Both the position numbers and the translations under genes were made by a program. From contig AJFK01000212.1 in assembly GCA_000467715.1 (NCBI GenBank), positions 1 through 41,078 on the forward strand: a DNA stretch of 41,078 nt. Reading direction: 5' to 3'. Every line of letters begins with the position of its first letter. Within the stretch, counting starts at the first letter, position 1. The notes beneath the pieces were generated by a model, which searched no databases, had not been told where the DNA came from, and was given only the letters and a program-made list of their open reading frames with translations. This document shows positions 4,170 to 25,206 of the stretch, in pieces. The DNA comes from Hysterium pulicare CBS 123377 (lineage: Eukaryota; Ascomycota; Dothideomycetes; Hysteriales; Hysteriaceae).

Positions 4170-5644
4170 TTAAGGGTTGTAATACTTCCGCCAGTCATGC
4201 TCCTCCCTAAACCCCAGCACTTCTCGTATCTTCCTGTTGCTTAAAGGAGCCTCCCATTCTCCCATATCTCTCGTGATTGGTGTGTTTGGGCAGTGTGTCT
4301 TCAGGAACTCTCTGGTCGGAACGACTGCGGTAATGGTGTCGTTAGTTGCATTGAAGACTTGGAAACCTAGACCATTTTTCTGAATACACAGATCGCAGAT
4401 CTGCGCAAGGTCCCTTGCATCTATGTACGACCAAGCATTGCGTTTTCTGCAACTCGGCTCTTGGATATACTTTGGGAAGTCGCGCTCATACTCGTGTGGC
4501 TCGATCACATTTCCAATCCGAAGAGCGTAGATATCGGCCTCAAACCTTCGGGCGAAACCTCGGGCAGTTCGTTCGCCACATAGTTTACTGAAGGTGGAGT
4601 ACAATTAGCATGATGTTTAATACTTCTGCTCATAGTGTTCTGATCTTCAGACACTGCTTAAGTGGATGTGGGTAGTGAACTTATAAGCGAAAAGTACAAA
4701 GGCGGTAACATAGACTTTAACTGGGACCTTCCGTACGATATGGCATACGTATCCATAGGATTCACGTCGTAATCTTCCTCGAGAGGGAATGAGTGGTAGT
4801 CCAAATCACCCTGACCGAAACAAACTTCACGGAATTATCACCAATAAGCTAATAGACACAGCTGTAGGATATTCAACTTGCCTTCATACGTCGTCTCACT
4901 GCTAGCGATGATGATTTTCCTCACGCCGAGCTTGCATGCAGCCTCTATAACATTGTAGGTGGCTAGAACGTTGCCTTTAAAGCATTCGTTGTCGGGAACG
5001 AGCATGTTTCGAGCGTATGCAGCGAAATGGATGACTGCGTCTGGTGGTCCTGGTACTGATTGTCCTTCATATCCAGCAAAAGTAAAATGTGCCGTGAGCG
5101 CATTGACTATAGGTAGGGGCACAATTAGCATGAACTTCCAAAAGGGGTTTTAGGACTGCCAGAACCCGCTTAATACGTCTGCTTATAGTGTTCTGATCTT
5201 TAAGTGTGACGTACGTAGTGAACATGTAAGGGAAAAGTACAAAGACGGGAACATAGACTTTGCACCCGGACGTTACGTACAGCACTGGCCGCTGTCCGTC
5301 AAATCCGTTTTCAATGTGAATACATTTGGATCTGGAAACGGAACAAGGTCCAAATTGAGAATCTGGTACTAAAGGTGGGTATAATTAGCATAAACTTCAA
5401 AAAGGGTTTTAGTACTACTGGAACCTGCTTAATACTTCTACTTATAGTGTTTAATCTTTAGGTGCTACTTAAGTAGAACATAGGTAGTAAACGTGCAAGG
5501 GACAAGTATAAATACGGGGACATAGACTTCCAAATGTACCCCGACCTTACGTACTCCTCGTTTCACCAATCCGGGTATCACATGCCTGCCAGCTTTTCCC
5601 GATCCTCCTGTGAAGACGATCCGTTTGCCATTTGACTGTGCCAT
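4170..5644 (-). CDS. NAD(P)-dependent epimerase/dehydratase, extended SDR (5 exons, three introner-like introns)
   Basis: Short-chain dehydrogenase/reductase of the extended, epimerase type, predicted to be a soluble NAD(P)-dependent enzyme acting on a nucleotide sugar or similar substrate; the substrate is not evident. Exons: 5644-5555, 5368-5281, 5106-4882, 4824-4737 and 4587-4170, giving 302 residues. Motifs are the N-terminal Rossmann glycine motif TGGSGKAG (about 12-19), HFAAYA after strand 4, an SSETTYG segment, and the catalytic YxxxK in MDTYAISK. An intron interrupts that last motif after two bases of the Ser codon. Introns 1, 2 and 4 are 186, 174 and 149 nt, similar to one another, and annotated separately as introner-like elements. 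Intron 3 is a 57-nt GC-AG intron with donor GAAG|GCAAGT. An in-frame ATG at 5722 would add 26 hydrophobic-leaning residues; I prefer 5644 because the Rossmann strand then begins close to the N-terminus as usual. Confidence 0.9.
4588..4736 (-). mobile_element. Introner-like element C (epimerase intron 4)
   Basis: This 149-nt intron runs from GTACGGAAGGTCC at 4736 down to CCACCTTCAG ending at 4588 and sits in phase 2 inside the Ser codon of the catalytic YxxxK motif. It shares the blocks AAAGTCTATGT, TTTGTACTTTTC, GTTCACTAC, CACTTAAG, AGATCAGAACACTAT, AGAAGTATTAA and CATGCTAATTGT with the other copies. It is the shortest member: about 30-40 bases between the AGAAGTATTAA block and the branch site are missing relative to copies A and B. 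Confidence 0.8.
5107..5280 (-). mobile_element. Introner-like element B (epimerase intron 2)
   Basis: This 174-nt intron has donor GTACGTAACGTCCGGGTG at 5280, branch site CATGCTAATTGT and acceptor CCTATAG ending at 5107. It is in phase 1. It shares ordered blocks with copies A and C over nearly its whole length, including AAAGTCTATGT, GTACTTTTCCCTT, TTCACTACGTACGT and AACACTATAAGCAGA. Removing it exactly restores the epimerase frame (GQC/FNALT). Confidence 0.82.
5369..5554 (-). mobile_element. Introner-like element A (epimerase intron 1)
   Basis: This 186-nt intron has donor GTACGTAAGGTCGGGGTA at 5554, branch site TATGCTAATTAT and acceptor CCCACCTTTAG ending at 5369. It is in phase 0, between Gly30 and Tyr31 of the epimerase. 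The core contains the perfect palindrome CTACTTAAGTAG, and the two ends (AAGGTCGGGGTA and TACCCACCTT) are nearly complementary. It matches copy B in ordered blocks and copy D especially at the two ends and the core. Confidence 0.82.
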
Positions 5645-6008
5645 GCTCTGAGAGAGCGATGCTTCGTGTAGGAGAGGTAGAAATGTAAGGTATAGAATTA
5701 GGTGGGGGGAAGAAAAAGCCACTCAATTGATGAACAAATTTTAGTTATCTCCCAGGAAAAGGGTTCTGCGTCTTAAACCTGCATCCTAATGATCCTAATG
5801 ATGAACTGTAAATTTACGTCATTATTTCGGCAGTTCTAATTTGTTATCGATACGGCACCCGTATGGCTTGCTTGCTCTCCAATAAGGAGGTTTAGCACGC
5901 GTGCCCTAGCCTTAGCACAATTTCTCTCCCCTCCCATACGAAGTCCATCTTGTCACCTCTGCCTACGCAACGCCTATACCACCTCTCTATGGTTGAACAT
6001 CATTACAC
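5645..6008. other. Divergent intergenic region, epimerase / conserved unknown protein
   Basis: A 364-bp gap between two divergently read genes, so it should contain both promoters. Pyrimidine-rich stretches occur at about 5920-5990, just before the plus-strand start, as is common upstream of fungal start codons. No further structure is visible. Confidence 0.35.
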
Positions 6009-6925
6009 ATGACCACCGGGCTGATGCCGAGGTTCATATCATACGTCCGCATCCGCCGCTCCAGTACAAAATCCGCGCACCTGACGCCCACAACCTCTCC
6101 GGCTCTGGGACCATTCTCAAGAACACTTGCCAACGCGCGGAACAGAGACGCCTCGGTCTCGGCGACATGGTTCACCAGCACTGCTCCCTGTCGCTCTCCC
6201 GATCTTGGTGATCATAATCGCAAACCTCTAGATGAACGCACCTTGAAGCTGGGCAAAAGTATGATTTGCTATCCTCGAGTGTTTTCCACGCGCTGACAGT
6301 GGGGTATTTAGCTATTCGAATACTACATGAGCGCCTTCCTACCCTTTTGGCATCGCCCCTCCCTCAAGATATCTTGTCCCCACATATTACGCTTAACCTT
6401 TTCCCTTCGACTCACCCTCATCTCCCGACTGTGAGCGGCAAGATCGCATATACTGCAGCATTATGGACTGCACCTGTAGCATGGGGAAGGGTTCCTGTGG
6501 TGGGGAATGTGAAGTTGATCGTTCTCTCTGAGCGGATGGTTCAAAATGGAGGAAACTCAACGGCTGCTGATATGCGCCACGAAAAGTTAATCGTCAAGTG
6601 GAAGACTTGTGGCAAAAGCAGAAGCAAACAAAACGAGGGCCAGGTCGACAAAATTACAGAGTTTCTTGGAGGCGATAGTCAGAGTGAAGAAGAATTTTGC
6701 GGGCTCTTCTTTTTTGAATTTGACAGTGAGGGCAGGATATTGACGCACACCATTGAACATGCCGAAGAGGGTGGCAGTTGGGACAGGACAACGAGAGTTG
6801 TCAGTGTCACCGACTGGCTGCTTGGCCGAGCATGGGGAAAGAAGCCGGAAGAGGGTACTCCAGGACTTGCTCTGGCGGAGTGCCAGAGGGATGAAAACCA
6901 CAGACTCTTAAGGAAAGGAAGATGA
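6009..6925 (+). CDS. Conserved fungal protein of unknown function (2 exons, possibly mitochondrial)
   Basis: I do not know a function for this gene. Exons 6009-6258 and 6312-6925 give 287 residues. The 53-nt intron has donor AAAA|GTATGA, a GCTGAC branch site and acceptor TTTAG; it rejoins LDERTLKLGK to TIRILHERLP in a natural-looking helix. The first ~60 residues are rich in Arg, Ser and Thr with almost no acidic residues, as in mitochondrial presequences. The middle contains NLFPSTHPHLPTVSG and APVAWGRVPVVGNVKL, and near residue 215 lies GLFFFEFDSEGRILTHTIEH, a strand-rich pattern like the end of an NTF2-like fold. I recall similar uncharacterised proteins across Pezizomycotina, which supports a real, conserved gene. 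The mitochondrial location and the NTF2-like fold are inferences. An alternative acceptor at 6299 would make a 41-nt intron, too short to be likely. Confidence 0.72.
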
Positions 6926-7741
6926 TGATAACATGTGCGTGCAGCTCAAGCACCCGCCTTCGGCTGCAGATCTCGGTGTTGGGGACAAAAAGAGGAAACT
7001 TCGCTTGTGGTGTTGGGTGTATAAGAGTGTAAGGTAAATCTTCTTTTAGTAGTTTGATTGTCTGTGCTTTATCCCCTCGGCCTTCAAATGTTGTATAACT
7101 GTAAAATAGCCTAGTATCATTAGAAATATCAAGCTCTGAGTGTTCATCTTTCAAGGTTGCAAAGCTAGGAACCCAATTAGGTAGCATTACTTACCTAGTT
7201 AATCGCCAAACGTAAAGGTTACCGGGTTAAGTGTTCAACAAGTAACATCCCTGCACCAAATGCTCCTCTATGGCACCTACTTGAGATGCGAAGTTGCATT
7301 ATGAGAAACTGTCGTGGCAGGATCTGAATACTAAGTATCAATCAAGCCCCTGGCAATCGCATATCACTCACTTCTCCGCAATTGATGCAGTGCCACTGGG
7401 GCGTTGCATGGGATGGCGTTGACAGACGTTGTGATGCCGTCTTAAAGTGTGTCGGCTAGTGATTGGCTGCTTGTGAAGTAAGTATGCGGTCGCAAATACG
7501 GCCGTGCGTGCTCAAGGAAGCTCTCGCTCGGACGTCTTCCAGCGCTCACAGCAACCCTCATCTAATTCCTGTCTTGCCGCATTGTCAATCCCTTCAGCGA
7601 CCCTTCTACCTAGTTGTTGGCTATACCTTTGCTTTCTGTTAGCCGCCGTCGCCCGCTAGCTCCCCCGCCTGGGTCGTCCTAGCTCCCAACCCCATTGCAT
7701 GTTTCGTCTTCCGCCAGTACCACAGCCTCGCGACCGCAAAC
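6926..7741. other. Intergenic region upstream of EDE1
   Basis: This 816-bp gap holds the 3' UTR of the preceding gene and the EDE1 promoter. The last ~180 bases before the EDE1 ATG are C/T-rich, as expected for a fungal 5' leader. ACCTAG-type words occur near 7191 and 7608. A 126-codon minus frame at 6807-7187 lacks recognisable motifs and overlaps the upstream gene's 3' end; I treat it as noise. Confidence 0.35.
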
Positions 7742-10700
7742 ATGTCTGAATCTACGACAGGTGCGGACCTGAGTACGTTGCCCGTGTCTGCTGCTCTCCT
7801 TCGCGTGGATAACTCTGCTAACCGCCGCTTCCTGTGCCTAGATCATCCTATCCTGAACCTGACTCCCGAAGAGAAGCGCATCTTCAGCCACCTGTTTGCA
7901 CAAGCGGACACTGAGAAGCTTGGTGTAGTCACGGGCGAGGTTGCTGTGAAATTCTTCGAGAGAACGAAACTAGCACCAGCCGTTCTGGGCGAAATATGGC
8001 AGATTGCTGATACTGAGAATCGAGGCCTGTTGACATCGTCAGGATTCTGCATGGTGCTGCGTCTGATCGGCCACTATCAAGCTGGAAGGGATCCGACTCC
8101 AGATCTCGCATTTAGACGTGGATACCCCCATAACGGACTTGGTCTTGAATGCCGGCTAACCTTCCTGCAGCTGGTCCTCTTCCTAAGTTCGACGGTCTCA
8201 GCCTCCCTCCCGCACCCGCACCTCCTAATTTTCCGGCTCCACCCGCGGGCCTTCAACCGCAGATGAGTGGTGGACCAATTCGAGTACCTCCGCTGTCTCC
8301 AGCGAAAGCAGCGGAGTACGCCTCCTTGTTTGATAAATCCGGTGCCCAAAATGGGATACTTTCAGGTATCAGTCCGAAAGATTCAACTGCTTGTCACATG
8401 GCTAACCGCGTGGGCGTAGGCGAGAATGCGAAGCAGATATTCGAGAAAGCTAGGTTGCCAAACAACATCCTTGGTCAAATATGGAATCTAGCAGACACGG
8501 AACAGCGGGGAGCGCTTGGTGTAACTGAGTTCATCATCGCTATGCATTTGCTTGCTTCTTATAAAACAGGAGCTCTGAAGGCTCTTCCTACCAATCTCCC
8601 CGCTGGTCTTTATGAGGCGGCCTCTCGAAGAGGTCCTGTACCTCCTCCGCCTGGGCGCCCAAGACCAGATGAGCCAGTATCTGCTATTCCGCGGCAGTTC
8701 AGCGGGTCAGGACCTCAACGAAACCAGAGTCCAATAGGTCGGCCATATGGGACCCCCCCTCAGTCTGCGCAACACACGGGCAACGAATGGCTTATTAAGC
8801 CTCAAGAAAAAGCCTCGTATGATACCTTATTCAATAAAGTGGACACAGTTGGACGTGGGTTCATAACTGGAGAGCAGGCTGTCCAATTTTTCAGTGATTC
8901 GGGATTACCTGAAGATATTCTGGCTGCTATTTGGGATTTGGCCGATATAAAGTCGGAGGGCCAATTAAGCAGAGACGAGTTTGCCGTCGCTATGTACTTG
9001 ATACGGCAGCAGCGAACACCAGGGATAACTCTCCCTGTCACGCTGCCATCCAATCTAGTCCCTCCCAGTATGCGGAATCAAGCACGGCCTCCTGCATCCA
9101 CTGCAGCGCCAGGGCTAGATAACTCTACCTACTCGAATCAATCACAACAGTCACAACCGAGGTCAGCGGCAGAAGACTTGTTCGGTTTAGATGCCTTCAC
9201 GGCTCCTGCCCCTGCCCAAACTCAGCAGTCGACTGGCGGTTCCGGCTCCTTCACCAAGCCGTTTGAGGCCGACCCATTTGGGAGTAAAACAGCTTCACCT
9301 ACGTCGCCACAGGCGTTCCAGCCGTCGCCACGCAACCCAGCATCCAGTTTCAAACCATTTATGCCTACCTCGTCATTTGGACAGACTCTCGCGTCTCATT
9401 CCACTGGTGCATCAGCCAGTTCCTCGCTGGCCCAACCCCGTGGAAATCAACCTCAACAGTCATCAGCAATGGATGACTTGTTGGGCGATAATGACCCTGA
9501 AGTAAGCAAGAAGCTAACCCAAGAAACTGCGGAGCTTGCGAACATGTCCAACCAAATTGGCACGCTGCGAAATCAGATGCAAGAAGTCCAGAACAAGAAA
9601 TCCACCACAGAAAACGATCTTACCAGTGCTAGTACCCAGAAGCGTGATCTAGAGCTGCGCCTTTCGCAGTTCAGGTCTCAATATGAGCAAGAAGTCAAAA
9701 ACGTCAAATCATTGGAAGAACGCCTTTCAGCCTCACGCAACGAGACAAGGAAGCTCCAGCAAGAACTGGCTATGGTTGAAGGCACATATCAAGATCTTCA
9801 GACTCAGCACCGCCAAGTAGCCACCGCTCTGGATGCTGATCAACGGGAAAACGCTAATCTGAAAGAAAGGATTAGACAACTAAATGCCGAAATCAGTCAA
9901 TTACGACCTCAGCTTGACAAGATGAGATCCGATGCCCGTCAGCAGAAAGGCATGGTATCTATTAATAAGAAGCAGCTTACAACGAATGAAGGAGAACGGG
10001 ACAAGGTCAAATCCGAGATGAATGACTTAAACAAGTCTGGTCAAGAAGGGTCCCGAAGTCCTTACCCTACACCGCAGGAGACTCCCGGCGTGGCCAGCCC
10101 AGCTACATCCACAGCGAGCCACAGTACGAATCCATTCTTCAGAAAATCTCCCCAACCAGCAGCTGAGAATACAATGTCCCCTTCAGGATTCTCTCGTGAC
10201 GGCACTGCCCAACCTCATAAGGACTTTGACAGTGTTTTTGGGAATTTTTCCTCGCCACAAACTACGGGGCCACCTCCAACATCATTTAGGTCAGACAGCC
10301 AGAGCCATGTACCGGTATTCTCGGCTCAGTCAGGCCATTCTGTGCGCTCTTCGGAACCTGATGTCCCTACGCCATCTACCTCACCACCCCTTTCATCATA
10401 CCAAGAATCTCCGAGAACTGGCGAGCCGCCTGCTCCCCCAGAATCGAGACAATTTGCCTCTAGTTTTTTGCCACTTCGCGATAACGTCCCCCGTTCTGAT
10501 TCATTTTCCTCCTCCGTTAAAGTGTCCGCTCCAGCAAGTAGATACGGTCCGACGGGAAATGAAACCCCGACAATCTCAAAGAGTTCGCCTTCAGCTACCC
10601 CCGTTCCAGAAGCTACAGGTCTAGAGCGTTCTGAGACTTCCCGTACTGAGACCAACAATTTTGGCTCGTCGTTTTTCGATCGCAATGCCACGGCATCACC

Positions 10701-12384
10701 CGCTGCAAGCACTGCCAGCGAAGCCCAAAAGTCTGGTCCTAAATCTGAAGATCGAAAGGATACATTTTCGAGCTTCGGCCCGGCCTCAACAAGTCGCGAG
10801 ATTCCTGGTGCCTTTCCTGGGGATATGAATTCGCCAATTCAACAAGAGCCTACTGGAGAGAGCAGTCTCAGCGATCGAAGCAAGAGCAGCAATCGACAGC
10901 CAGAAGGAGTCCAGAACAATCGCTCAGACCCTTTCTCTCTGAACAGGGACCAACAGCGAGGCCCAAGCGCTGCCAAAGTTGATTTTGACGCTGCATTCGC
11001 TGGCTTTGGGAGTGGGCGCCAATTCCAGGAGAGGCAGCCCACGGGATCGTCGGTGAACGGACCTTCCGATTCGGCGGCGGCAAGCAAATTCAACAAAGAG
11101 TTTCCCCCGATTGAAGACCTTGGTCACGACGACGATAGCGATAGTAATAGCGAGCAAGGGTTTGCAGACAACTTCACCTCCGCGTCCCCACAACAACATC
11201 GCCAAGGCCGCGGACAAAGCCAAGGCCAGCCGCAATCAAGGCCAGCTACAGGGACAACAGGCGGCGATGCGACCACGGACGACTTCTTGAGACATCGTCC
11301 CATTGTGACACAGACTGATTCGAGCGCGAGTGCTCTGCCCAGCCCAGGAGCGCAAAAGTCACCACCAACCTATGATCAAACGGTGGGTACGAACAACAGA
11401 AGTGGATCGAATCAATTTCCCCCAGAGTTTGGCGGATTACTTCCATCCCGACAGGACCCAACCGTCTCTCCTCCCGGGTCTCAATCCCCGGAGAAGAGCT
11501 TCAGTTCACCAACCACAGGGGGTCAAGGGGCAGCGTTATTTGGTGGCGCACTCTCCTCGAAAGCGGGTACCTCTGCGCCAACAACCGCATTCTCTGCGTC
11601 ACCTCCTCCAGCAGACACGCCCACTTCAACTGTTCCGTCGGATGCTTATCACTCAGCCGTATCGTTCCCGAGCGTCGAGACTAATAAGGGTTCATCGTCT
11701 ACGGCTAATCCCCCCCAGGCAGCAAAATCCACGTTCAATGATGACTTCGAATCTGGTTTTGACGATCTATCAGAGGCTAAAGAGGTGGACGAGAAGACAG
11801 ACGATGATTTCATGCTCGGCTCTCATCATCGCGAAGGTCTTGACGAATTCAACCCGGTATTTGACTCGCCTGCGGCCTCAAAATCAAACACAATGGCATC
11901 TCAGCAGACACCAACCGGTAAACCAGCCCACGGAGCAGAAGATAGTTTCAGCGATTTTGAGCATCTTTCCCAGAGTTTTGGACAAGCTAAAGCCCCGCAG
12001 CAACCTACTGCAACATCGACACAAGATTGGGACGCCATCTTCTCCAGTCTTGATTCTGCTCCACATGAGAAAGCATCAGGGGCCCAAGGCGACCTCGGCA
12101 AATCTGCGTTTGATAGCCTTGGGGTGGATGAGCCCTCAACTTCGACCTCGAAGCAGTCTCAAATGCCACAGCTTGCCAGAGCACTCAGCGCAGGAACGGA
12201 ACACGACGACCCTATATTGAAAAAGCTAACTGGAATGGGTTATGCAAGGGGAGATGCCCTAGCAGCGCTCGAAAAATTTGACTATGATATTAATAAGGTC
12301 AGTAAAATATCCATATCTAGCCTTAACCTGATGCAGCATCTGATAATTTTTAAGGCGGCAGATTATCTAACCTCCGGCCACTAA
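7742..12384 (+). CDS. EDE1: EH-domain endocytic scaffold Ede1/Eps15-like (5 exons)
   Basis: Early-arriving scaffold of clathrin-mediated endocytosis at the plasma membrane, orthologous in layout to yeast Ede1 and animal Eps15. Exons: 7742-7772, 7842-8117, 8171-8365, 8420-12297 and 12355-12384, 1469 residues in all. Three EH domains are seen at about 18-105, 145-240 and 290-385, each with a DxxxxGxxxxxE-type EF-hand loop and an IWxLAD core (IWQIADTENRG, IWNLADTEQRG, IWDLADIKSEG). A Pro/Gln/Ser-rich linker follows, then a coiled coil at about 525-705 with heptad Leu, Glu and Gln. After that comes a long Ser/Thr/Pro-rich disordered region with DPF-like motifs, and a C-terminal UBA domain (LTGMGYARGDALAALEKFDYDINKA) for ubiquitin binding. 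The last coding exon supplies only ten codons, stop included. Introns are 69, 53, 54 and 57 nt; three are multiples of three without in-frame stops. The start is set by the short exon 1 joining cleanly to NHPILNLTPEE. Confidence 0.95.
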
Positions 12385-12911
12385 TTGGAGATGGGACCCG
12401 ATTGGTATTACCAGCATTGATGTTTTGTGTAAAATATTACCCTCTCTCGACATAGCCTGGTATCAAATAGGTTAGCGTTAGTTGGCGTATAGCAGCTCTT
12501 CGATTCTAAGTCACGTTAGCAAGCAAACCAGCGCGCATATGGACGGTCTTTTATTTTCGCCGATCGTTCTGTACACCTATTTTGGTCGGACTTCCATGTC
12601 AATCATTCAAATAATTTGGCCAGAAGCCTTTCGTTTTGCATATATAGTCGGTAGTAAATTCCACTTTGTAGTTTTTCAATGTATAACCATCATAGTGGGC
12701 GAAAGAACGTGACTACCAAGACTATGTCAGTCTCCTTTATTCTACCTCCCACCAAACTGCATAGATCGTTTCGATGTAAGAAGCTACAAAGCCAGTTCGC
12801 TTCATGAGGCGGATCTGGAAAGTAAATTGGTTATGCTGTGCTGCCGCGAGAGCTTGGAAAAGGCTATGTTTGAAGAGCCACGAAATAACTTATCCCCGTA
12901 TACCGTCCTGC
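12385..12911. other. Convergent intergenic region EDE1 / FAD oxidoreductase
   Basis: A 527-bp region between two convergent stop codons, presumably both 3' UTRs and terminators. A 76-codon frame inside it has no recognisable motif. I see nothing else. Confidence 0.35.
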
Positions 12912-14176: not shown

Positions 14177-14783
14177 GGTTGATTTCGCCCAAGTACGATA
14201 AGAGCGATTTACCAGTGAACGGAAATATATCTTTGGGGAGCCTAATTCGAGTCTGAATGTTGGTATCAACGAAGTGGGCGAGTGACACGCTGTTGCTTAT
14301 CAACATAACACAAATGAATGCATCTCGTTTACATAGATACGTCATAGTACTATAAGAGGGGGGAGTGCACGACTCGGCCTCTGGACGTGGTGACTATCCA
14401 CATCTGAACTCTGCAACAGCCCGTGGATGAGCCTTCCCAGCGCAAGAGCTCCCCTTTTCATCATGATTGTTCGCCCACTTGCTTTATGATAACAAGGGAT
14501 TGGGGGAAAAGTTAGAAACCCAATTTCGTTGTAATTTCGATGTTTTGCTGATGCAGAACTGTGTGGTTCTTAGAAATTTCGTCTGCCTCCACTAACTTTC
14601 CGTCTACAGTGAGTTGCAGTCTGCAAGCTCATCTTGAAAGTGCTTAGATACGCAATGCCTGTGCCAGTACCAGTTCGGGCATGCTTAGACTCTAAAGGCA
14701 ATCCCAAACACTCCTTTGCCCTACCTTTGTAGAGCGCGCCTCTCCACAAACCTAGAACATTGCTATCACACCCTGGAGGAAGG
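14177..14783. other. Intergenic region between WW-domain gene and FAD oxidoreductase
   Basis: About 600 bp holding the promoter of the oxidoreductase and the 3' UTR of the WW-domain gene. A frame at 14570-14881 is the antisense shadow of the Gly-rich tail. Nothing else is evident. Confidence 0.35.
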
Positions 14784-15781: not shown

Positions 15782-16490
15782 GAGATTCGACTTGGCGTTT
15801 ACTTGGCTACTCTAGTAGGTGATGCAGAAGGTGTTAGAGGAGAGACTGAGGGATTAAGCTGGAGCGACCAGATTGGGGGTGGGGTTTAATACCTATGGGG
15901 CGGGGCGTTCCAAGATTGGTGCGAAGCTAGCTGACAGGGCTGTGGGTGCGTAATCGACGTAATACATTTGTGGCTGTGTTCGAGTGGCGTGACGCAGGGA
16001 CTACACATGCACGTGACATGGTATGGAATCGAGAATAAAACTTCAAAGATTGTATAACCTTTGGGCCTTTGGGGTGGGAAAATCAAGGAAAGGGCTGATA
16101 GGGTGTTTCCTTGCGTTCTATTGCTGAGTGGAATGGGGGAACGGGGATTAGGCTAGTTCGCACCGGTGAGGCTATGTGTTCGAGTAAATTGGAAAGCCGG
16201 ATAGCTAATGCACATAGGCAGACGCCCGCCAGATATCACGATTCAATTCGGTGGAAACAGTTATTAATATTCCATGCAATGCTGGAAAATACTCATTTGG
16301 TCGAGAAAGTGATACCTGATGCATTGCATTAAGATTAGTATCAGCGAAGATAGTGCAGTTTACTCGAAACTGTGCCATGGCACTTCTTCATGAATATTAG
16401 CTGTAAAAATAGTCTTGTTCTTTCCAATCAACTATGCAAGTGTACAAGGGATCCAAGATGGCTTCTCCCCCAAGCCCTCGAGCATGATCT
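15782..16490. other. Intergenic region upstream of the WW-domain gene
   Basis: A 709-bp gap with the WW gene promoter on the left and the 3' end of the F-box-like gene on the right. Frames at 16111-16332 and 16372-16698 show no motif and are treated as noise. Nothing else is seen. Confidence 0.35.
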
Positions 16491-17507
16491 TCAGCCTTCG
16501 GGCCAGTTCTCCCCCACAACCCATCCTTCAGCTTCCTCCTTCTTGTCTCCGAGCCGTCGCCATACCGTACTTATGACTCTAGCCCCAGGATTCGGCCTCG
16601 TGAGTAATTTCACGCCGGTGCCCCTCCTTCCCCTCCACACTTCCATATCTATCTTTCCGCCGCAAATATTTCTCAACACCTCAACCACCGGTGAATGATC
16701 ATCTCCCCATACACTGCTGTACGCGTTTTCGTCAGGGTAGAAAATCCGGGTTTCGAGTTTCAAGAAGAGCGGGACGGAGGAAGGTGTGGGGGAGAGAAGG
16801 GTCCGGGTTAGAGTACCAAGAGCGTAGTGAGCGGTCAGGGTTGTGGATGGAGAATGCGGTGACAGGTTTTGTGGGATCGCGAGTTGACCAAAGCCAGGGA
16901 AGACGCCGCGGATACGAGGCCGTTGGGTGCGGGATGTATTGGACGATTCAGAAGTAGCAGAGGATTCGGAAGTAGAAGAAAGTAGCCTGGCAAGCGTGTT
17001 GTAGGGAGGCGGCACCTGGAGGTTGTAGTATCCGCAGATATACACGCAGCGCGCTTGGCGGAGGAGATTCGGGTACAGCGACTTGAGAATGATGATGCCG
17101 TAAGGATAACTCAGATACAGACTGATGCCTCCTTTGGTTGGTCCCGATTTGCGCAGTCTCATGTACTCACCCAGTTCGGCATTCACCTGCTTGTTCGTTT
17201 GCAGCAAAGCGAGAGGTGTGGGGTGTGGTAGATGTGTTGAATAGCCACGTTCTCTAGGTACTCTAGGGGGTTCGGAGACTGAGAGTAGAGACGGATCGCA
17301 ATGGCTTCGAACCACAGGGACATGATGCGGTGGGAGGCCTGGAATTTCGGTCCGGGGGGTACAGCTTTTCTCGTCTGCACCTTCAACAGCGGCACTTGTA
17401 ATTGTAACAGAGTTCGCGTCGGAGAGGGCAAATTCGTAGATGGCCAGGCGCAGTTCCGTAGGCAGCTCGAGGAAATATGGCCGCGGTGATGAAGCCGGAG
17501 TAGGCAT
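16491..17507 (-). CDS. Fungal F-box/2EXR-like hypothetical protein (single exon)
   Basis: Intronless gene of 338 residues from the chosen start. The N-terminal FLELPTELRLAIYEFAL is the hallmark of a very large family of fungal proteins with a degenerate F-box or 2EXR domain, most of unknown function. It is followed by PLALLQTNKQVNAELGEYM, the second conserved helix of that family (usually LLxxCRQIxxEa). The remainder has a Ser/Thr-rich insert and a C-terminal half with no recognised motif. If it is a true F-box protein it would recruit substrates to an SCF ubiquitin ligase, but that is inference. The frame is open up to an ATG at 17663, which would add 52 residues including a hydrophobic run (LLLCLASVYISGA). 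I chose 17507 because the family motif normally lies near the N-terminus. Confidence 0.75.
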   Translation of the reverse strand: MPTPASSPRPYFLELPTELRLAIYEFALSDANSVTITSAAVEGADEKSCTPRTEIPGLPPHHVPVVRSHCDPSLLSVSEPPRVPRERGYSTHLPHPTPLALLQTNKQVNAELGEYMRLRKSGPTKGGISLYLSYPYGIIILKSLYPNLLRQARCVYICGYYNLQVPPPYNTLARLLSSTSESSATSESSNTSRTQRPRIRGVFPGFGQLAIPQNLSPHSPSTTLTAHYALGTLTRTLLSPTPSSVPLFLKLETRIFYPDENAYSSVWGDDHSPVVEVLRNICGGKIDMEVWRGRRGTGVKLLTRPNPGARVISTVWRRLGDKKEEAEGWVVGENWPEG

Positions 17508-17754
17508 GCTCGACGGTGGATAGGTGGACAGAGACCTGCTCTGCTTGGTGGCATGGGGCAACGTCGGCGATGGTGTGAACTTAAACTTAAGCCTAACGGA
17601 GCGAGTCGCACCCGAGATGTAGACGGATGCCAAGCACAACAACAAACTGTATGGACCTAACAATCACCATAATACGCTAAACTGTTGTGAATTCGGAGGC
17701 ACTGCTTCCCACAGCTATTACTCCATCAAACAATTTGATATTATACTATGATTT

Positions 17755-20243
17755 CTAAATGAGAAGCGCAAATAGTAGGTACGTCTTCTTACCATAATCG
17801 GTAGCACTCTTGCCAAGCCGACTGCGGCTGGATTCATCCGCATCCAGGGCTTTCTCCAAGATGTTTAACAGCGGTTGAAATGAACCCCCTTGCACCTGTG
17901 ATTCTGGAGATCCAAGATAGTGCTGGATAAATAGAACATCGAAGAGTAGCTGCTTAAGTTTTTCGTTTCGCGTTTCCTTTCTCCCGTGCTTCTCGTTGTT
18001 CGTGTATTCTTCCTTTCCTTCTTCGCCAGCATTCTGGGGGATCCAGGGCGCGCCTGGCTGGTCAGCGTTTGACGTTATGAACGTCCAAATCTCGCCCCAG
18101 AGACTACAGACTTCCGCACTACCCACATTTCTCATCACACGGACTGCATCAGGAGTCCATAAATCACCGCCATAACTTCCCATATCCTTCGTCAAGGTCT
18201 GCAAAAACCCGAATGTGGCAGGCGAAGGTTGAATCGGCAACGGGGGGTTTCCTTCCCATAGAATACGGCCTTGGGGGCGTTGAGAACGTGCAAAGTGGAG
18301 GAGTGACTTCTTATAAGCTTGTAATGATGGCTGTACAACATGCCTTGTCAGAGTCAGATAAAGAGGCTCAAAGAGTGCCGACGTGAAGGGGTTGAAGAGC
18401 GGAACGGATCTCGTGTCTCGAAGCCACAGTCTGGGAAGACGCTCGCCGATTTCTCGAGTGACTCGGATGACGAACACAGTCTGATAAGTCTTGGATTTCT
18501 GGGTGCTAGAAGTTAAATGAGCTATCATGTCCGTAATACTCTCGGTAAACTTCGTCAAGGCATCTGTGAGTCCCTCTTGCGTAGCTTCCTCGAGTAGTCT
18601 AGGGTCTTCCTCGCTCAGCAGACTTTGTTTAGAATCAAGTCCAAGATCGTCCTCTGAATCTCCTGACTCATCCTCGAAATGGCTATCCCATTGTACCTCC
18701 TTCATGCTCTTGATAATAGATTTAAGCTCCGATACAGATTCAGACCATCTCTCGTACTTTTCTAGCACGCGAAGTACTGTTTCATCCTGTCCGTGACTCT
18801 CATTAAGAATATGTTGTTTGAATGCTTGTGCACCGTTGCTTATATCCATCAACGTTGAAGTGGAAGTCCAGAGAAAGGTGTTAGGGTCCGTGTCAGTAGA
18901 AGCGCATTCTGCTATCACATTGGAGATCTCAGAGGCAATAGTAGAGAGTCCTTGGGCACGGTTCCACGCAATGCTCCTCAGCTGAGAGTTCAATACATCT
19001 CGAAGATCATCAAGCACTGCAGAAGATCTTAGTCCCGGCATTCTAGTAGTTGAACCCATCCAAGTCTCAATCAAATCATGTCTGAGTGATGAAGTTGTCG
19101 ATAGACTTTTCGTATCTGACAATGCAGCCGTTATCCCCTGCAAAAATGCAGAGATAGCTTGCTTGGCCCACGAGTTTAGCAACTTCTCCGCATCGGATTT
19201 TTGTAGCTCGTCATGGCGTGACCAAGGGGTATAGTTCCGGGTTTCCTGTGCAATCCAGCGTTCTTGGGTGTCCAGATTCAATTCAGCGAGCGTTCTAACC
19301 TCCGGATCTTGCATGAGGGGCTGTGCCTTCAGCTTGAATAGTGAGTCCGCAAGTCGCCGAGGGAAAATCGCAACAGTATCATGGAATGTTCTCAAGCATA
19401 GATTGAGACTATTCATACCATCCATAGTTACGTCTTGGTGATTTCTGAAGGATGCTTTAATCGCCTCCATTCGGACATGATGAAAGTGTCTTAGAACGTC
19501 CGTGGGCGTAGAGCTTGTGGCTAGCGAGTAAGCACACATTCCCTCCATGAGCGAGATTGTTTCAGCAATAGGACTGGAAAACTGCTTGGCTATTCGAGCC
19601 AACAATCTCCGACGCAGGGTTCCGAGCTTGTCCCGAGTCTGATCAACTAATGGAGGTGGAATCTTGGATTGTGAAAGGTCCTTGTGAATAAGTCGTGCTA
19701 TTACCAGAACCTTCGCGGCAAGCAGATAGGTCCGGTCCTTCTTCATCAATCGGTTGATGACAATCGGACAAATCTGAAGGATTGAAAGTTGTGATGCGAA
19801 TGCATATCGTAGCTGATCTATAATCGTAGGATTGGTCAATTGCTTCTTATGTATTTGTTCTCAGCCCGAACACACTGACCGCGCGTCCGTAGAAAATTGT
19901 CCATCCTTGTGGTATTTTGGGATAGTCGATCCACGGCACGCGAATTGCACCTTTGACCTACCCGACCTAAAACAGTCTCTACGCCTAGCATATTCTCTTC
20001 CATGTGAATGATTATTTCGGCGGTATCGAGAAGATCGCGATAGCTTGCTCTATGTTATCTTGTCAGTTGTGCGATCTTTCGATATAGAAACAATACCCAC
20101 CCAACAAGGGAACGGAGCTTCTCGCGGTTGTCGCCAGCATTGGAGCGAAGCTGACTCTCCAGCTTGCGAACAATTGGAACCGGATATTGAAAAGCATCTT
20201 CCCAAGACTTGAAGGATCGGGGATCGGGAGCTTCTGTAGTCAT
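17755..20243 (-). CDS. COG1: Conserved oligomeric Golgi complex subunit 1 (3 exons)
   Basis: Subunit of the COG tethering complex, which captures retrograde vesicles at the Golgi. Exons 20243-20101, 20049-19880 and 19817-17755 give 791 residues. The N-terminal ~95 residues match the Vps51/Cog1 N-terminal helix region: FKSWEDAFQYPVPIVRKLES, then SYRDLLDTAEIIIHMEENM, which forms the inter-subunit coiled coil. Helical repeats follow (YAFASQLSILQICPIVINRL; LLAAKVLVIARLIHKDLS). The C-terminus reads YGKKTYLLFALLI, matching the end of fungal Cog1 proteins, so the GTAAGA inside it is not used as a donor. For intron 2 I chose the acceptor at 19818 (ATTATAG) because it keeps phase with the donor at 19879; earlier AGs do not. 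The gene ends 91 bp from the longer reading of the F-box-like gene. Confidence 0.88.
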
Positions 20244-20466
20244 GGTAAGTAGTGAAACATATCAAAAAATGCACGACTACATCTACCCTCGAGCGCACAC
20301 GCTGAATCGGTCCGACGTTATTGCGAGCGACATTTAGTATCTCACGTGATCAGTGTTACCTAATAATATTGGTATCACAAAGGGGTCATGTTGGATCATA
20401 AATTGTAGCATGAGGTCGCCTTTGATCAAGTCTTCTAGCTGAAGGCATAATAAGGCCGTCCATATC

Positions 20467-21877
20467 TCATTCTTCTACACTATCCTCATCATCTTCTTGC
20501 CTCCGCTTCGCCAATACTTCTTTCCACTGTCTCGCAAATTCTCGAAGACTGCCTTCTCCACCTCTACTAGCATCTACAACATCCCGTGGAAGCTTATGAG
20601 CGCTATATTGGGGCGTAGTGAAGCCGTAAGCTTCAGGATCATCCCGACGAACAAGTCGAAATTCTGGAATGAGGAGTTCTTCAGTCTCCCACCCCCCCGA
20701 ATCTGTTGACGCATTATTCGCTGTTTGCTCCCGATCATCACCGCTCTGCAAAACCAGAGGTCGTGACACTACTGTCTCTTCTGAGGTCAAAGGTAGAGGA
20801 TCGGGTAAGGTGAGCAATTCCAGCCAACTGAATAGCAAAGGGTCAGTCCTTTGTGCCCACGGGTTGATATCCACAAGCCAAACACGATTGTGAGGTGGTG
20901 GGACGTAGACATCGAACGCAAAGTTCTCATCCGGAAATGTGTCCCGCAGCCGTACGTCAAAGAAGCGTTGAATCGTATCGCGCAACTTATCTTGCATCTT
21001 GAAGAGAAATTCGAAGTGGTTGAGGTCACGCTGGCACAACGCGATGAGTCTGCGTCGTCGCACGAAACAACGAAATTCAACCGACGGATTTAATGTTATG
21101 TGCTTGCGGAGTACTAGATGGAAAGGTATCTTTGCCACGGATAAACTAGTGCTCTCTTCCACGTCGTCCTTGGCATCATCTTTGACGGTGTCGTCAAAGG
21201 CGTGTTCTAAATCGTGAGTGATGAAGTCACTCGACTTCAGGAGCAGGTAGACATCACTGGGCGTTCTACATTCCATACTGTTGGTTGCCGCTATCCAAGT
21301 GGCGTCTTTCGGAGCAGACCAGTTCAGCTTCGGAACGACCTTCCCACCCAGGTCCTCTATAGTTGATTTGATAACTTCATGTACGTCGCGCCATGGGGTC
21401 GACGGATCGCCTCCCTCATCTTCTGAATCCGACGCATTCTCGGCGGCGGAGAATATTCCGCTATCAGTGTCGGACCATTGGGAATGTTCGTTGTCCTCGG
21501 GCGGGAGAATTATGCCGTCGGCACGAAGGTAGGTGAGGAACGGATCAGATAGAGGAATGAGCCGAGCCTTTGGGGTGATGGCCCTATAGCTTTAACAAAT
21601 CAATCAGTGTTTGAATGACTGGTGAGCGATAGAGAAAGTACCGGGGATACCAAGCATGGGAGGAGCAGTTGAGAATATGACTCTTCGTGACTGGAGGAAA
21701 GGGAAGCTCCGTCAAGACTTGTGACGGGCCTTTGGACTCGCTCGAAATTGCTGGAACCGCGGCCATATGGTTGTCGAAATCTTCGAATACCCTGTTGTCC
21801 GTGGTGATACGGAACTTCTTGTTAGTCACTTGTGGCGCAGGAGTTTCGGTTCCGTGTTTGGCTTTTGATGGAGACAT
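20467..21877 (-). CDS. CDC123: Cell division cycle protein 123, eIF2 assembly factor (2 exons)
   Basis: D123/Cdc123 family protein, an ATP-grasp-fold chaperone that binds eIF2-gamma and promotes eIF2 complex assembly in the cytosol. Exons 21877-21642 and 21583-20467 encode 450 residues. Family landmarks in order: [41 protein letters not shown], an acidic segment ([22 protein letters not shown]), [65 protein letters not shown], and the metal/ATP-site segment [20 protein letters not shown]. The single 58-nt intron splits the Arg after WYP. The N-terminus is uncertain: MSPSKAK at 21877 adds about 60 atypical residues before the conserved part, and MAAVPAIS at 21766 is an alternative. The gene is divergent from CWC21 with a 122-bp gap. 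Confidence 0.93.
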
Positions 21878-21999
21878 GGTGAATAGTGAGCCGGTGGGGC
21901 AAAATATAGGTATGAAAAGCGACGCGACCGAGTCATGTACGAATGCACCACACTGTCGGACCACCGCCAACACACTGCGACCACCAAATTCCATCTAGA
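21878..21999. promoter_or_regulatory. Short divergent promoter CDC123 / CWC21
   Basis: Only 122 bp separate the two opposed start codons, so both transcripts must start within this stretch or within the neighbouring 5' coding or leader regions. No single TATA box stands out. It is a candidate bidirectional promoter linking a translation factor and a splicing factor. Confidence 0.5.
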
Positions 22000-22586
22000 A
22001 TGTCTTCCAACGTCGGTCTCTCTACTCCACGAGGCAGTGGTACCTCTGGTTACGTCCAGAAGAATCGATCATCCCTCAGACCCCGCGATAATGCAGTGCC
22101 GTATCCAAAGGACTGGGACAATCTCAAGCACCGCCAAAGGCAGCCAGATGAGGAAATTCTCGAGCATGACCGTCGGCGTGAAATCGAGGTCAAAGTTTTC
22201 GAACTGCGGGATAAGCTTGAAGATGAAGGGTCGGCCATCATACCTGCTGTTGTCAATCCCGATAAGTACTGACTGCCCACAGCGTCGAGGAAGACGAAAT
22301 CGACGACCAATGCACAGCACTACGCAAGAAGCTCGAAGCTGAGCGAGCCAAGGGGCAGTCTAGTGGGCCCAATGCTCGAGGTTTAAAACAACATCAGGTG
22401 CACGAGCTTGCCAAAGCCAAGATCGAAGAAAGTGAAGCCATGCGTCGAGCATTCGGTATCCGAGAGGACTACGAGGAAGGAAGCCATTGGAAGAAACAAG
22501 AGGAGCGATTCAGGAATTCTCTTGTGGAGAAGGGGAAGGAGGAGGGACATAGACTCGAAGAGCCGAACGGAGATGAATCCGATTGA
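22000..22586 (+). CDS. CWC21: Pre-mRNA splicing factor Cwc21 (2 exons)
   Basis: Small spliceosomal protein of the cwf21/SRRM2 N-terminal family, which sits near the catalytic centre with Prp8 and Snu114. Exons 22000-22229 and 22283-22586 encode 177 residues. The N-terminus MSSNVGLSTPRGSGTSGYVQ is diagnostic of the family and fixes the start; an upstream in-frame ATG at 21943 is ignored. The cwf21 domain follows: EILEHDRRREIEVKVFELRDKLEDEG joined by the 53-nt intron to VEEDEIDDQCTALRKKLEAE. The C-terminal half is charged and helical (KIEESEAMRRAFGIREDYEEG). The intron begins GTCGGC, not the usual GTANGT, and ends CCCACAG, with CTGAC as the branch site. It is divergent from CDC123. Confidence 0.94.
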
Positions 22587-23354
22587 GCATGCGCAATAAA
22601 TTGTCTGCTGCCTGAGTGCCACTCGTCAGGCTCTGAATCACGAGCTGCGGACTTGAAGCGGAAAATGTCGTCATTTCCTTGCGAAAATATACGTCCAACG
22701 ATGCTTATACAACAGGGTGTTATTACTTTTGAAGGTTGGTGGATTCCTCTCTAGTTGTCCATGCTCCTCGAGAAAGCATGCTAAGACTTCCCAGCACTCA
22801 TACTACTTTTCATTTGATCCGGGGTTCAGATATACCGACCTTCTATGCTTTGTTCCAGGGAGACAACGTACTATAGTATCACAGGCGCGATGGAGCCAGA
22901 GGAAACCAATCCGCCACTATTAGGTTTGGTAATTATATGGTTCCACAGAGAAGAGGTTCCCATTCGAGGTCGACATGTTGATGACTGCCTCCAGGCCGAG
23001 TGAACCGCCGTGCGTGGTGCACAGTTATCCGACAGTACGTAGGCCTAGCAGTATCCGAAACGTTTGCTTCCATCCTGCCGATCATTGCCCCAATCTGTTG
23101 GTTTATGTGCTGCGCATCAATCCTTCCAGGCACCATGACGACCTTGTTTCACTCTGCTTTCTGGCTGCGCCTCCAAACGTGAACAAAATCCCATCCATGA
23201 TTTGGCCTTCATTTCGTCTTCCTTCAGCATCCATATCTTCAATGCGGACACTTATGCCCAACATTTTCCTCTCCTTCCGGCCATACAAAATGTTGAATTC
23301 GTTTAGGCCTTTCTACAAAAACTTCTGAGAATCTTTTCAAGCCTTGAGACCAAA
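22587..23354. other. Intergenic region CWC21 to MFS transporter
   Basis: A 768-bp region containing the 3' UTR of CWC21 and the transporter promoter. Several short frames on both strands have no motif and mutually overlap. I see no RNA gene. Confidence 0.35.
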
Positions 23355-25206
23355 ATGAGCCGCTCCGCACAATGGCTGGCACGGGAATTGGGTCTAGCAA
23401 CTCTTGCCGCAGCAAGCACAGATACCTACATCCTCATACTCACCCGCTTCCTGCGTATGTTCGCATATGGCTCTGGTGCTCTTATTCTAGCACTCTATTT
23501 CGAAGCATTAGGTTTCTCGGACGAACGCATTGGACTTTTTATGACTCTCACGCTGCTTGGAGACGTCGTCCTTAGCCTCCTTCTTACGCTTGTAGCCGAC
23601 AACGTGGGCAGAAGAACGACATTGTTCCTCGGTTCTATCATGATGGCATTCTCAGGAGTGGTATTTGCAACAACCGGAAACTACTACGCTCTGTTACTTG
23701 CAGCCATGCTGGGTGTGATAAGCCCAAGCGGAAGCGAGATCGGACCGTTCAGAGCTGTAGAGGAGTCTACGTTAGCACATCTGACTGAAGCATCAAAACG
23801 CTCAGATGTTTTTGCTTGGTACGTAGTCCTCGCGGTCCTAGGTACATCTGCTGGACTGGCAGTCGGAGGATGCATTATAGATTATTGCCAATCGTTAAAC
23901 GGGTGGGAGGAGGTGGACGCCTATCGCGTGATCTTCTGGATATACACCGGTATAGGCCTCATCGAGGCCTTGCTGACCTTTTTTATGAGCCGGCAATGCG
24001 AGCGCGACAGTAAGGCTGCTCCGGGTGAAGCTGGCAACGAAACGGAACCTCTTCTAGGACCCCGAAGCAACTCGCAACGGGACGCACGTTCCCAGGAGCA
24101 GACCAGCTTCAAGATTTTCGCACGTATCTCACTACGAAGCCGTTGGATTCTCGTCCGCCTATGCGGTCTCTTCTCCATCGATTCTCTCGGTTCGGGCATG
24201 GTGCCATCTTCGCTCATTAATTTCTACATGGACCGCAAGTTTCATCTCCCAAAAAGTAAACTCGGCGGTATCATGTCAGGCACCTGGGTTATATCCAGTG
24301 TAGGAAATATTTTTGCCACCAGTCTGTCGAAGCGCAGTAATACATTTGAGTCAATAAACTCGAAAGAAGTAGGCTAACCACACTACAGTCGGTTTGATCA
24401 AGGCAATGGTCTTCACGCATTTGCCCTCGGCTATATTTCTTAGCCTACGTACGTCAGGTCCGGGTACAAAGTCTATGTCCCGTCTTCGTACCTTTCCCTT
24501 CTATATTTAAACCCTGCATCTTACTTAAGTAGTATTCAAACATTAAATTACTACAAGTAGAAATGACAAGAAGGGTTCAGTAGTGCTACACCTTATTTTG
24601 GAACATTATGCTAATTATGCTCCCACCTTTAGTCCCAGCTCCTGACTCCTTGGTGTTAACAATATGCCTCCTGGTGGGAAGGGCGAGTTTAAGCTCCATG
24701 GACCAGGCTCCAAGATCGGCGTTCTTGTCTGCGGTTGTGCTGTCGGAGGAGTAAGTTGTTCTCTATCTACCTGCGCACTACACTCCAATGACTGACAAGC
24801 GATTATATGTAGACGAACAGCCGTGATGGGCATTGTCAACGTTGTCAAAATACTAAGCCAAAGTGGAGGCCCCGCCATTACTGGAGTACTGGCAGGTCAT
24901 AGGAACTTTTGGATTGCTTTCGTGGTGGCTGGCTCACTGAAGGCAGCTTATGATGTTGGATTGTTAGTCTGGTTCGCCAATGCAAAGATTCAGGGTCAGC
25001 AGAAAGGGCAAAGCAGGGATAGGCAAAGTGAAGCGTCCAGCAGTACCGAGGAAGACTCGTTGAGTTCGATGGACAATAGCCATGAGCAGGAGGACGGAGG
25101 GGGCAGTATTCCAAGCAGTCCATCGTCTAGATCTCGGAAGCAAGCTGATCCCGATACCGTTTCTGAGCGAGTTGAGAGGACGGAAGAAGGCAGCAGCAGC
25201 ACCTAA
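23355..25206 (+). CDS. Major facilitator superfamily transporter (4 exons, one introner-like intron)
   Basis: Twelve-helix-type membrane transporter of the MFS; substrate unknown. Exons 23355-24336, 24389-24448, 24633-24750 and 24813-25206 encode 517 residues. The first half has six predicted helices, including LILTRFLRMFAYGSGALILAL. The loop 2-3 MFS motif is seen as LVADNVGRRTTLFLGS (D-x2-G-R-R), and there is a charged central loop around 220-250. The second half includes FTHLPSAIFLSLLPAP, VGRASLSSMDQAPRSAF and VNVVKILSQSGGPAITGVLAG. The C-terminus is a hydrophilic tail of about 60 residues rich in Ser, Gln and Glu. Intron 2 (24449-24632, 184 nt) belongs to the same family as the long epimerase introns. 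Exon 2 is only 60 nt. Joins are confirmed by the continuous sequence AIFLSL/LPAPDSL and VLSEE/RTAVMGIV. Confidence 0.9.
24449..24632 (+). mobile_element. Introner-like element D (MFS intron 2)
   Basis: This 184-nt intron begins GTACGTCAGGTCCGGGTACA and ends CTCCCACCTTTAG, with branch site TATGCTAATTAT. It shares CAAAGTCTATGT, CTTTCCCTT, TACTTAAGTA and the entire 3' end with the epimerase copies, but its inner part (about 24540-24600) has diverged more. It is in phase 1, in the sense direction of the host gene. The host frame is restored exactly by removing it. Confidence 0.82.

Follow-up and report, generated by a model that had tools for sequence, protein, structure and literature searches.

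Four long introns in two unrelated genes of the fungus Hysterium pulicare CBS 123377, together with dispersed copies elsewhere in its genome, are, judged by their sequence, a fungal introner-like element (ILE) family. We consider it likely, at a probability of about 0.78, that this is a single family in which a spliceosomal intron of ~185 nt was copied from one or a few sources into coding exons genome-wide, by way of its excised RNA. The origin of new introns is an open question, and ILEs are among the few sources that have been observed. To our knowledge, the mechanism by which ILEs are copied in fungi is unproven. The present family offers a large alignment in which an insertion motif and a reading-frame preference can be measured, and two pairs of rival ideas therefore become testable: RNA-based reinsertion versus DNA transposition, and pure insertion bias versus selection acting through the decay of unspliced messages.

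The four introns lie in a 41,078-nt stretch of contig AJFK01000212.1 (the window; Table 1). A direct check of the sequence bore out the claim of the first-pass annotation that they are homologous, along with its coordinates and GT..AG borders; their mean column identity is 78%. Exact excision had also been claimed, and indeed removal of the introns leaves an uninterrupted epimerase of 302 amino acids and likewise restores the reading frame of the MFS-like gene, a label that is our own reading of the protein (Pfam gave no match to the 65-amino-acid peptide across the M1 junction). Compared with PDB 3aw9, the spliced epimerase is gap-free at ILE junctions one and three; ILE junction two falls where the alignment is poor and has a one-residue gap next to it, and the ordinary-intron junction adjoins a six-residue gap. 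The elements had been described as about three times longer than other introns, and this holds because the median of ordinary introns is 55 nt, as calculated from 31 introns of the same loci predicted by a small unvalidated gene finder, whose coding models took in 43 of the 58 elements analysed below. The list of shared motifs stood only in part. ATGCTAATT is present in all four copies, but the CTTAAG core is absent from E2; the quoted AACACTATAAGCAGA is exact in E2 alone, and the quoted end, CCACCTTTAG, in two of the four, E1 and M1. An Rfam 15 scan of the window gave 0 matches above the gathering score, and a search of the assembly for 5.8S rRNA found none.

Table 1. Elements, the ordinary epimerase intron and host genes at the two starting loci (positions in the window)
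Feature	Position	Strand	Description	Basis
ILE copy E1	5369..5554	-	186 nt, phase 0; epimerase intron 1	Sequence; spliced CDS for phase
ILE copy E2	5107..5280	-	174 nt, phase 1; epimerase intron 2	Sequence; spliced CDS
Ordinary intron	4825..4881	-	57 nt, read as GC..AG; epimerase intron 3	Keeps the 302-aa frame; borders are our reading from the sequence
ILE copy E3	4588..4736	-	149 nt (internal deletion), phase 2; epimerase intron 4	Sequence; spliced CDS
Epimerase host gene	4170..5644	-	NAD-dependent epimerase/dehydratase, 302 aa once four introns are removed	Spliced CDS; Pfam; PDB 3aw9
ILE copy M1	24449..24632	+	184 nt, phase 1 (our reading), codon split C|TC; MFS-like gene	Sequence
M1 host gene	23307..25206	+	MFS-like transporter; limits at either end approximate, placement of further introns incomplete	Open frames 23307-24377 and 24796-25206

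Searching the 37.2-Mb genome by DNA query and by patterns yielded at least 60 copies. Of these, 58 were analysed; two found later (L084 and L085), both read as phase 1 and with 3′ ends moved by hand, are excluded from every statistic. This count is a minimum (one search scored the best 40 of 59 candidates). Of the 28 matches from the first search, 21 cover the whole 186-nt query. Five pattern searches gave 41, 33, 21, 42 and 42 matches, and since the reversed-pattern control gave 0 in each, the repeats are beyond chance. With a divergent copy as query, six places were found, every one among the known copies. To arrive at GT/AG borders, 11 of the 58 ends were shifted manually by 1 to 5 nt; two copies were merged from two pieces. 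This dispersed, multi-copy occurrence in genes supports the interpretation of the first-pass annotation that the introns form an introner-like family. No second introner family was seen in 188 kb of fetched, element-masked DNA, since an all-against-all comparison returned a single 28-nt match.

Sense-strand coding evidence of at least one of four kinds accompanied 55 of the 58 copies; none was shown to be intergenic, and the remaining three had none of the four kinds. Orientation is sense wherever it is readable; in 7 of 58, codon scores were better for the antisense strand. When 57 junction peptides were examined with Pfam (E1 was omitted, its automatic frame being wrong), a domain crossed the junction in 25, from many families and above the Pfam cut-off in 23, and 32 had no domain across it. 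The splice signals are better preserved than the body of the element: donor, branch and acceptor blocks are 0.93-0.94 conserved and other blocks 0.79-0.90, CTRAY occurs within the last 40 nt in 55 of the 58, and in 49 the branch A is placed 18 nt upstream of the end. Nearly all copies can be read as introns that would be removed by splicing. An aldo-keto reductase paralogue (58% identity) is continuous through the insertion point and has no intron; together with the homology among copies, this suggests that the introns were newly gained.

We then considered where the element inserts. The preferred site is (A/T)|T(C/G)A, with T at +1 in 33 of 57 copies (null 15.5), A at +3 in 32 (null 15.7) and a split A|TG in 12 (null 1.3); the null was built on the first, automated phase assignment with E1 dropped, leaving 57 of 58. 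AG upstream was seen in 0 of 57 (null 3.4, p 0.03), a modest depletion, and depletion of G at +1 was not significant (9 of 57, null 11.6). This preference differs from the AG|G proto-splice site and does not fit plain reverse splicing there.

Insertions are also unevenly distributed among reading frames. Phases 1/2/0 were 38/12/8 by automated assignment, which relied on open-frame length with one hand correction, and 40/12/6 after curation, when a curator aware of the bias assigned or upheld 11 by hand, guided by protein context that could be recognised. Phase 1 was found in 9 of the 31 ordinary introns. In a conditional logit with curated phases, phase added to the model beyond the site (LR 17.5, p 1.6e-4), and the site and phase effects are separable. 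The element carries its own TAA at nt 6-8, and phase 1 puts it in frame, so that an unspliced message stops at once. We tentatively tie the phase-1 excess to this carried TAA stopping unspliced transcripts. It counts against this reading that, by automated phases, 18 of the 20 copies outside phase 1 also run into a stop further on in the intron. Selection through decay of unspliced messages has been proposed for Drosophila (PMC2809761). However, there is something close to an even chance that the excess is a by-product of the motif at the insertion site, of codon composition or of longer context, and that neither translation nor decay plays a part. T(C/G)A is itself commonest in phase 1 of the coding flanks of these copies (460 of 910), and the available text of PMC8469720 cites an earlier report of codon-phase preference in fungal ILEs. 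The stop, moreover, is not extra-conserved in phase 1: 32 of the 38 phase-1 copies retain it, as do 19 of the 20 others (automated phases); continuing selection to keep it there is unsupported. Against the by-product reading, phase still adds LR 16.4 (p 2.8e-4) when bases -4 to +5 are modelled in the 58 copies with hand-curated phases, and LR 11.9 (p 2.6e-3) when bases -1, +1 and +3 are modelled in the 25 copies whose junction is spanned by a Pfam domain. By rank of identity the bias has no clear trend, with phase 1 in 13 of 20, 17 of 20 and 10 of 18 copies. A stronger proposal is that the ~60 sites, in all three frames, form a natural experiment on intron acceptance: with the motif allowed for, phase-1 insertions would survive about four times as well as phase 0, because phase 1 alone frames the TAA and unspliced messages stop and are discarded, while insertion would not be a simple reversal of splicing because its site, (A/T)|T(C/G)A, is not a proto-splice site. 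We regard this full proposal as unlikely; if true, the carried stop codon is part of the element's success as an introner.

Spread through RNA is our preferred reading because the copies lie in genes, in sense orientation, bounded exactly by the two splice sites and without the marks of a cut-and-paste transposon. By sequence, they are full-length GT..AG units with their own branch site and acceptor, inserted seamlessly and with no target duplicated. The source would be one or a few copies of this ~185-nt unit, and the excised, folded intron RNA would be the copied intermediate. It may enter the transcribed strand of another gene by reverse splicing into DNA or by capture of the intron RNA at a break. 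Insertion followed the site preference, and phase-1 insertions might survive since their unspliced transcripts run at once into the TAA. The consensus is predicted to form a long hairpin (MFE -46.6 kcal/mol, z -3.6), and its self-complementarity score of 28, stronger internally than at the termini, was not reached in 500 shuffles. On the other side, the folding advantage of single copies (n = 54) over shuffled sequences is slight (mean z -1.4), and broken pair cells numbered 478, against 493 +/- 6 in shuffles. Stability did not correlate with closeness to the consensus in 53 copies (rho 0.09, p 0.54), and RNAalifold returned 4 pairs for a 29-copy alignment and none for the 58-copy one, with no useful structure.

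The same strong self-complementarity would suit a non-autonomous DNA transposon (a MITE-like introner) moved by a transposase, with the sense copies in genes being those left after selection, as would the target preference T(C/G)A, which is short and self-complementary. Target-site duplications (TSDs) or terminal inverted repeats (TIRs) also mark most introner families outside ascomycetes, according to the portion of PMC9860276 consulted, which describes ascomycete families as an outlier in this respect. We think such a transposon improbable here. The imperfect 15-nt near-terminal inverted repeat of the consensus, with 12 of 15 matches, would suit it but was not significant by shuffling (p 0.064); no target duplication of 1-6 nt rose above permutation (smallest p 0.08), and in offset 4-nt windows the matches numbered 3 at most. 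AG or GT as the duplicated target was rejected, with no support from permutation or flank counts. Intergenic insertions, furthermore, should survive, and no such copy was shown. Ordinary transposons within older introns, or gene duplicates carrying one intron along, might be suggested by hosts from large families (MFS, aldo-keto reductase), but this is barely credible and largely contradicted by similarity that spans GT to AG, ends at the exon border and joins unrelated genes, by the lone 28-nt match in masked DNA and by the intron-less paralogue.

The closest known relatives in kind appear to be the Dothideomycete ILEs of Fulvia fulva, Dothistroma septosporum and Zymoseptoria tritici (van der Burgt 2012, Collemare 2015). 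As described in the consulted parts of PMC4457414 and PMC3443670, these too are multi-copy canonical introns in unrelated genes, are not canonical transposons, are co-linear with transcribed DNA alone and at times occur two per gene; they are also described as having a stable predicted structure and decaying towards ordinary introns, to which the hairpin of the present consensus may correspond. Unlike here, where AG is absent upstream and T(C/G)A is favoured downstream, an AG/GY preference is reported for them second-hand in the part of PMC8469720 at hand; the likeness between the families is one of published descriptions. That preference is also absent from Hypoxylaceae elements and may not define the ILE class. 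The symmetrical sister (stw)introns of Hypoxylaceae/Xylariaceae, as far as the sections used of PMC8469720 and PMC12403724 describe them, are likewise self-complementary, seamless, without TSD, confined to the coding strand and endowed with near-terminal inverted repeats. Those passages of PMC8469720 report neither phase bias nor a bordering-exon pattern for them, whereas both are significant here. A [D1,2] stwintron was rejected: those start with GGU, whereas G precedes GT in 10 of our 58 copies, and simple GT..AG excision restores the frame. Like the DNA-transposon introners of algae and other protists (Gozashti 2022), the present family is dispersed and makes introns in coding exons; unlike them, it has no TSD and no significant TIR.

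The first-pass annotation held that introns are, or recently were, multiplying in this genome. The copies show a past, near-star burst, since no pair among the 58 exceeds 92% identity; ongoing activity is unsupported for these copies on the same ground. Median identity to the consensus is 89%, and mean pairwise identity is 0.773, against a star expectation of 0.759. C-to-T changes occur most often at CpA (131 of 721), which hints at repeat-induced mutation.

The first-pass annotation had claimed that three introns of an epimerase gene and one of an MFS-like transporter gene are homologous introner-like elements (ILEs). All four are confirmed as homologous, with the stated coordinates and GT..AG borders; their mean column identity is 78%. 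The motifs quoted for them hold less evenly: the CTTAAG core is found in some copies and is missing from the second epimerase copy (E2), AACACTATAAGCAGA is exact in E2 and in none of the other three, and CCACCTTTAG is exact in two copies and not in the other two. Exact excision restoring the protein, also claimed, stands for the epimerase, since removal of its three ILE copies and one ordinary intron gives an intact product of 302 residues. Aligned with PDB 3aw9, the first and third ILE junctions are gap-free, and the second falls in a region that aligns weakly, with a one-residue gap adjoining. Excision of the MFS copy joins a C|TC codon and leaves the transporter-like frame continuous; its short junction peptide has no Pfam match, and the transporter was named by eye.

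Family copies and related features in the assembly (C and L numbers denote contigs and loci)
Feature	Contig	Position	Strand	Remark
Epimerase copy E1	C168 (the window)	5369-5554	-	
Epimerase copy E2	C168	5107-5280	-	
Epimerase copy E3	C168	4588-4736	-	
Ordinary epimerase intron, 57 nt	C168	4881-4825	-	apparent GC..AG, GCAAGT donor, read from frame
MFS copy M1	C168	24449-24632	+	
L016, first copy	C144	22187-22318		
L016, second copy	C144	22742-22927		
L075 copy	C206	11755-11931		MFS-type gene
L071 copy	C304	23589-23768		MFS-type gene
L083, aldo-keto reductase paralogue	C188	94797-95165		without the intron

A whole-genome search, suggested at first pass, covered the 37.2-Mb assembly (596 contigs). 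Gene structure and the proteins encoded suggest that the assembly is fungal; searching it for 5.8S rRNA gave no hit. A single copy as query returned at least 28 matches, the consensus at least 41, and the MFS copy at least 32, with two places counted twice each. Pattern searches of the genome hit the 3′ end 41 times, the 5′ end 33 times, the core 21 times and two further patterns 42 times each; the reversed-pattern control gave 0 hits in every one. Searching the fetched loci with a profile yielded 58 distinct copies, two of them merges of two pieces flanking a central deletion, and two copies added later bring the family to at least 60. The shortest of the 58 measures 132 nt and the longest 192 nt. 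With 11 ends shifted by hand by 1 to 5 nt, all 58 copies start with GT and end with AG; the donor is GTACGT in 44, the acceptor TAG in 48, CTRAY lies within the final 40 nt in 55, and the branch A is 18 nt from the intron end in 49.

Pfam, codon scores, the gene finder and hand reading together give coding evidence for 55 of the 58 copies; C182_16700, C581_62860 and C157_2927 are so far without it, and no intergenic copy has been demonstrated among the 58. A Pfam domain spans the junction in 25 of 57 junction peptides (all copies except E1), 23 above the Pfam cut-off, with SIR2 and CorA slightly under it; the other 32 have no Pfam domain across the junction. Domains spanned include MFS, P450, ABC-2 membrane, amidohydrolase, acyl-CoA oxidase, GH3, aldo-keto reductase, amino-acid permease and methyltransferase. 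Codon scores over ±150 nt prefer the sense strand in 51/58 copies and exceed the 95% shuffle level in 39/58 on the sense strand versus 6/58 on the antisense strand. Read residue by residue, the aldo-keto reductase paralogue L083 (58% identity), which lacks this intron, is uninterrupted at the insertion point, which is also covered by the match ranges of three weaker paralogues (35 to 47%). L083 has an in-frame TAG in the aligned part, away from the insertion point, and may be a pseudogene or carry a short intron.

The copies show a preference for certain insertion sites. Against random same-phase positions within the same genes, T at +1 occurs in 33 of 57 copies (15.5 expected), A at +3 in 32 (15.7), both together in 19 (4.0), and A or T at −1 in 39 (28.2). 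The split A|TG is found 12 times versus 1.3, and AG upstream of the insertion never, versus 3.4 (P = 0.03). This target differs from a proto-splice site. Fungal ILEs have been proposed to be copied either by reverse splicing into DNA or through intron RNA captured at breaks (PMC8469720); the target, not being a proto-splice site, speaks against a plain reversal of splicing. Spread by a DNA transposon is less likely: flanking exact repeats of 1 to 6 nt are nowhere above permutation. The family agrees with fungal ILEs as described in its genic, sense, splice-site-exact copies free of target site duplications and in a consensus predicted to fold (related literature: PMC9860276, PMC12403724, PMC3443670, PMC3510045).

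That consensus is a long imperfect palindrome (minimum free energy, −46.6 kcal/mol; z = −3.6), with a self-complementarity score of 28 versus a mean of 13 and a maximum of 26 in 500 shuffles. Individual copies have a mean z of −1.4 (54 copies), stability does not correlate with identity to the consensus (rho = 0.09; 53 copies), and RNAalifold did not recover the hairpin from copy alignments. Broken pairs occupy 478 of 3293 cells versus 493 ± 6 in column shuffles, and cells with both sides changed number 35 versus 24; common descent of the copies could produce so small an excess. Conservation peaks at the donor, branch site and acceptor (0.93 to 0.94).

Phase is biased as well. Phases 1, 2 and 0 count 38, 12 and 8 when assigned by open frames, 40, 12 and 6 after hand curation and 19, 3 and 3 among the 25 Pfam-spanning copies; ordinary introns predicted by the gene finder in the same loci give 9, 12 and 10 (n = 31). 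Elements placed by that gene finder are in phase 1 in 30 of 43 cases (Fisher P = 8.5 × 10−4 versus ordinary introns). In a conditional logit over positions along each host exon, with curated phases, the site effect has an LR of 98 (18 df; P = 5 × 10−13), and phase given site an LR of 17.5 (P = 1.6 × 10−4), with phase 1 weighted about 4 times as heavily as phase 0. On the Pfam subset, a smaller site model gives P = 2.6 × 10−3 for phase. The element starts with GTACGTAA, read in phase 1 as xGT ACG TAA, a stop at intron nucleotides 6 to 8; the median first stop would fall at nucleotide 87 with all copies in phase 0 and at 94 with all in phase 2. New introns have been linked to decay of unspliced messages in a proposal for Drosophila, where the early stop falls in phase 2 with canonical donors (PMC2809761); here, in contrast, the donor context shifts it to phase 1, the favored phase. 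It is plausible that the phase 1 preference is tied to this early stop and to decay of unspliced messages. However, phase 1 copies do not keep the stop more often than the rest (32/38 versus 19/20 in other phases), and 18 of the 20 non-phase-1 copies also reach a stop, further into the intron. In searches of freely accessible papers (main texts), we recognized neither a description of this insertion motif nor an introner for which a carried stop codon had been connected with phase 1.

Identity to the consensus ranges from 0.69 to 0.95 (median, 0.89; 58 copies), and the closest pair is 0.924 identical; fungal families thought active elsewhere show 98 to 99% (PMC4457414). Mean pairwise identity, 0.773, is near the 0.759 expected under independent decay from one source. 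The MFS copy is distant from all others, at 0.73 to the consensus and 0.75 to its nearest copy, E1. Because E1, E2 and E3 are each nearest to a copy in another gene (for E1 a copy on contig C248, with E2 second), their sequences fit separate insertions into the epimerase gene. A second gene, at L016, also holds more than one copy: two lie in one reading frame with about 420 nt between them, and one of the two has lost its centre. The L075 and L071 copies, in two different MFS-type genes, occupy positions about 7 nt apart within the same WRWCF motif, in phases that differ by reading of the frames, and are probably parallel insertions at an almost identical site. Across the 58 aligned copies, C-to-T changes occur most often at CpA (131/721, versus 97/950 at CpC and 70/735 at CpT), which may be a trace of repeat-induced mutation or reflect a subfamily.
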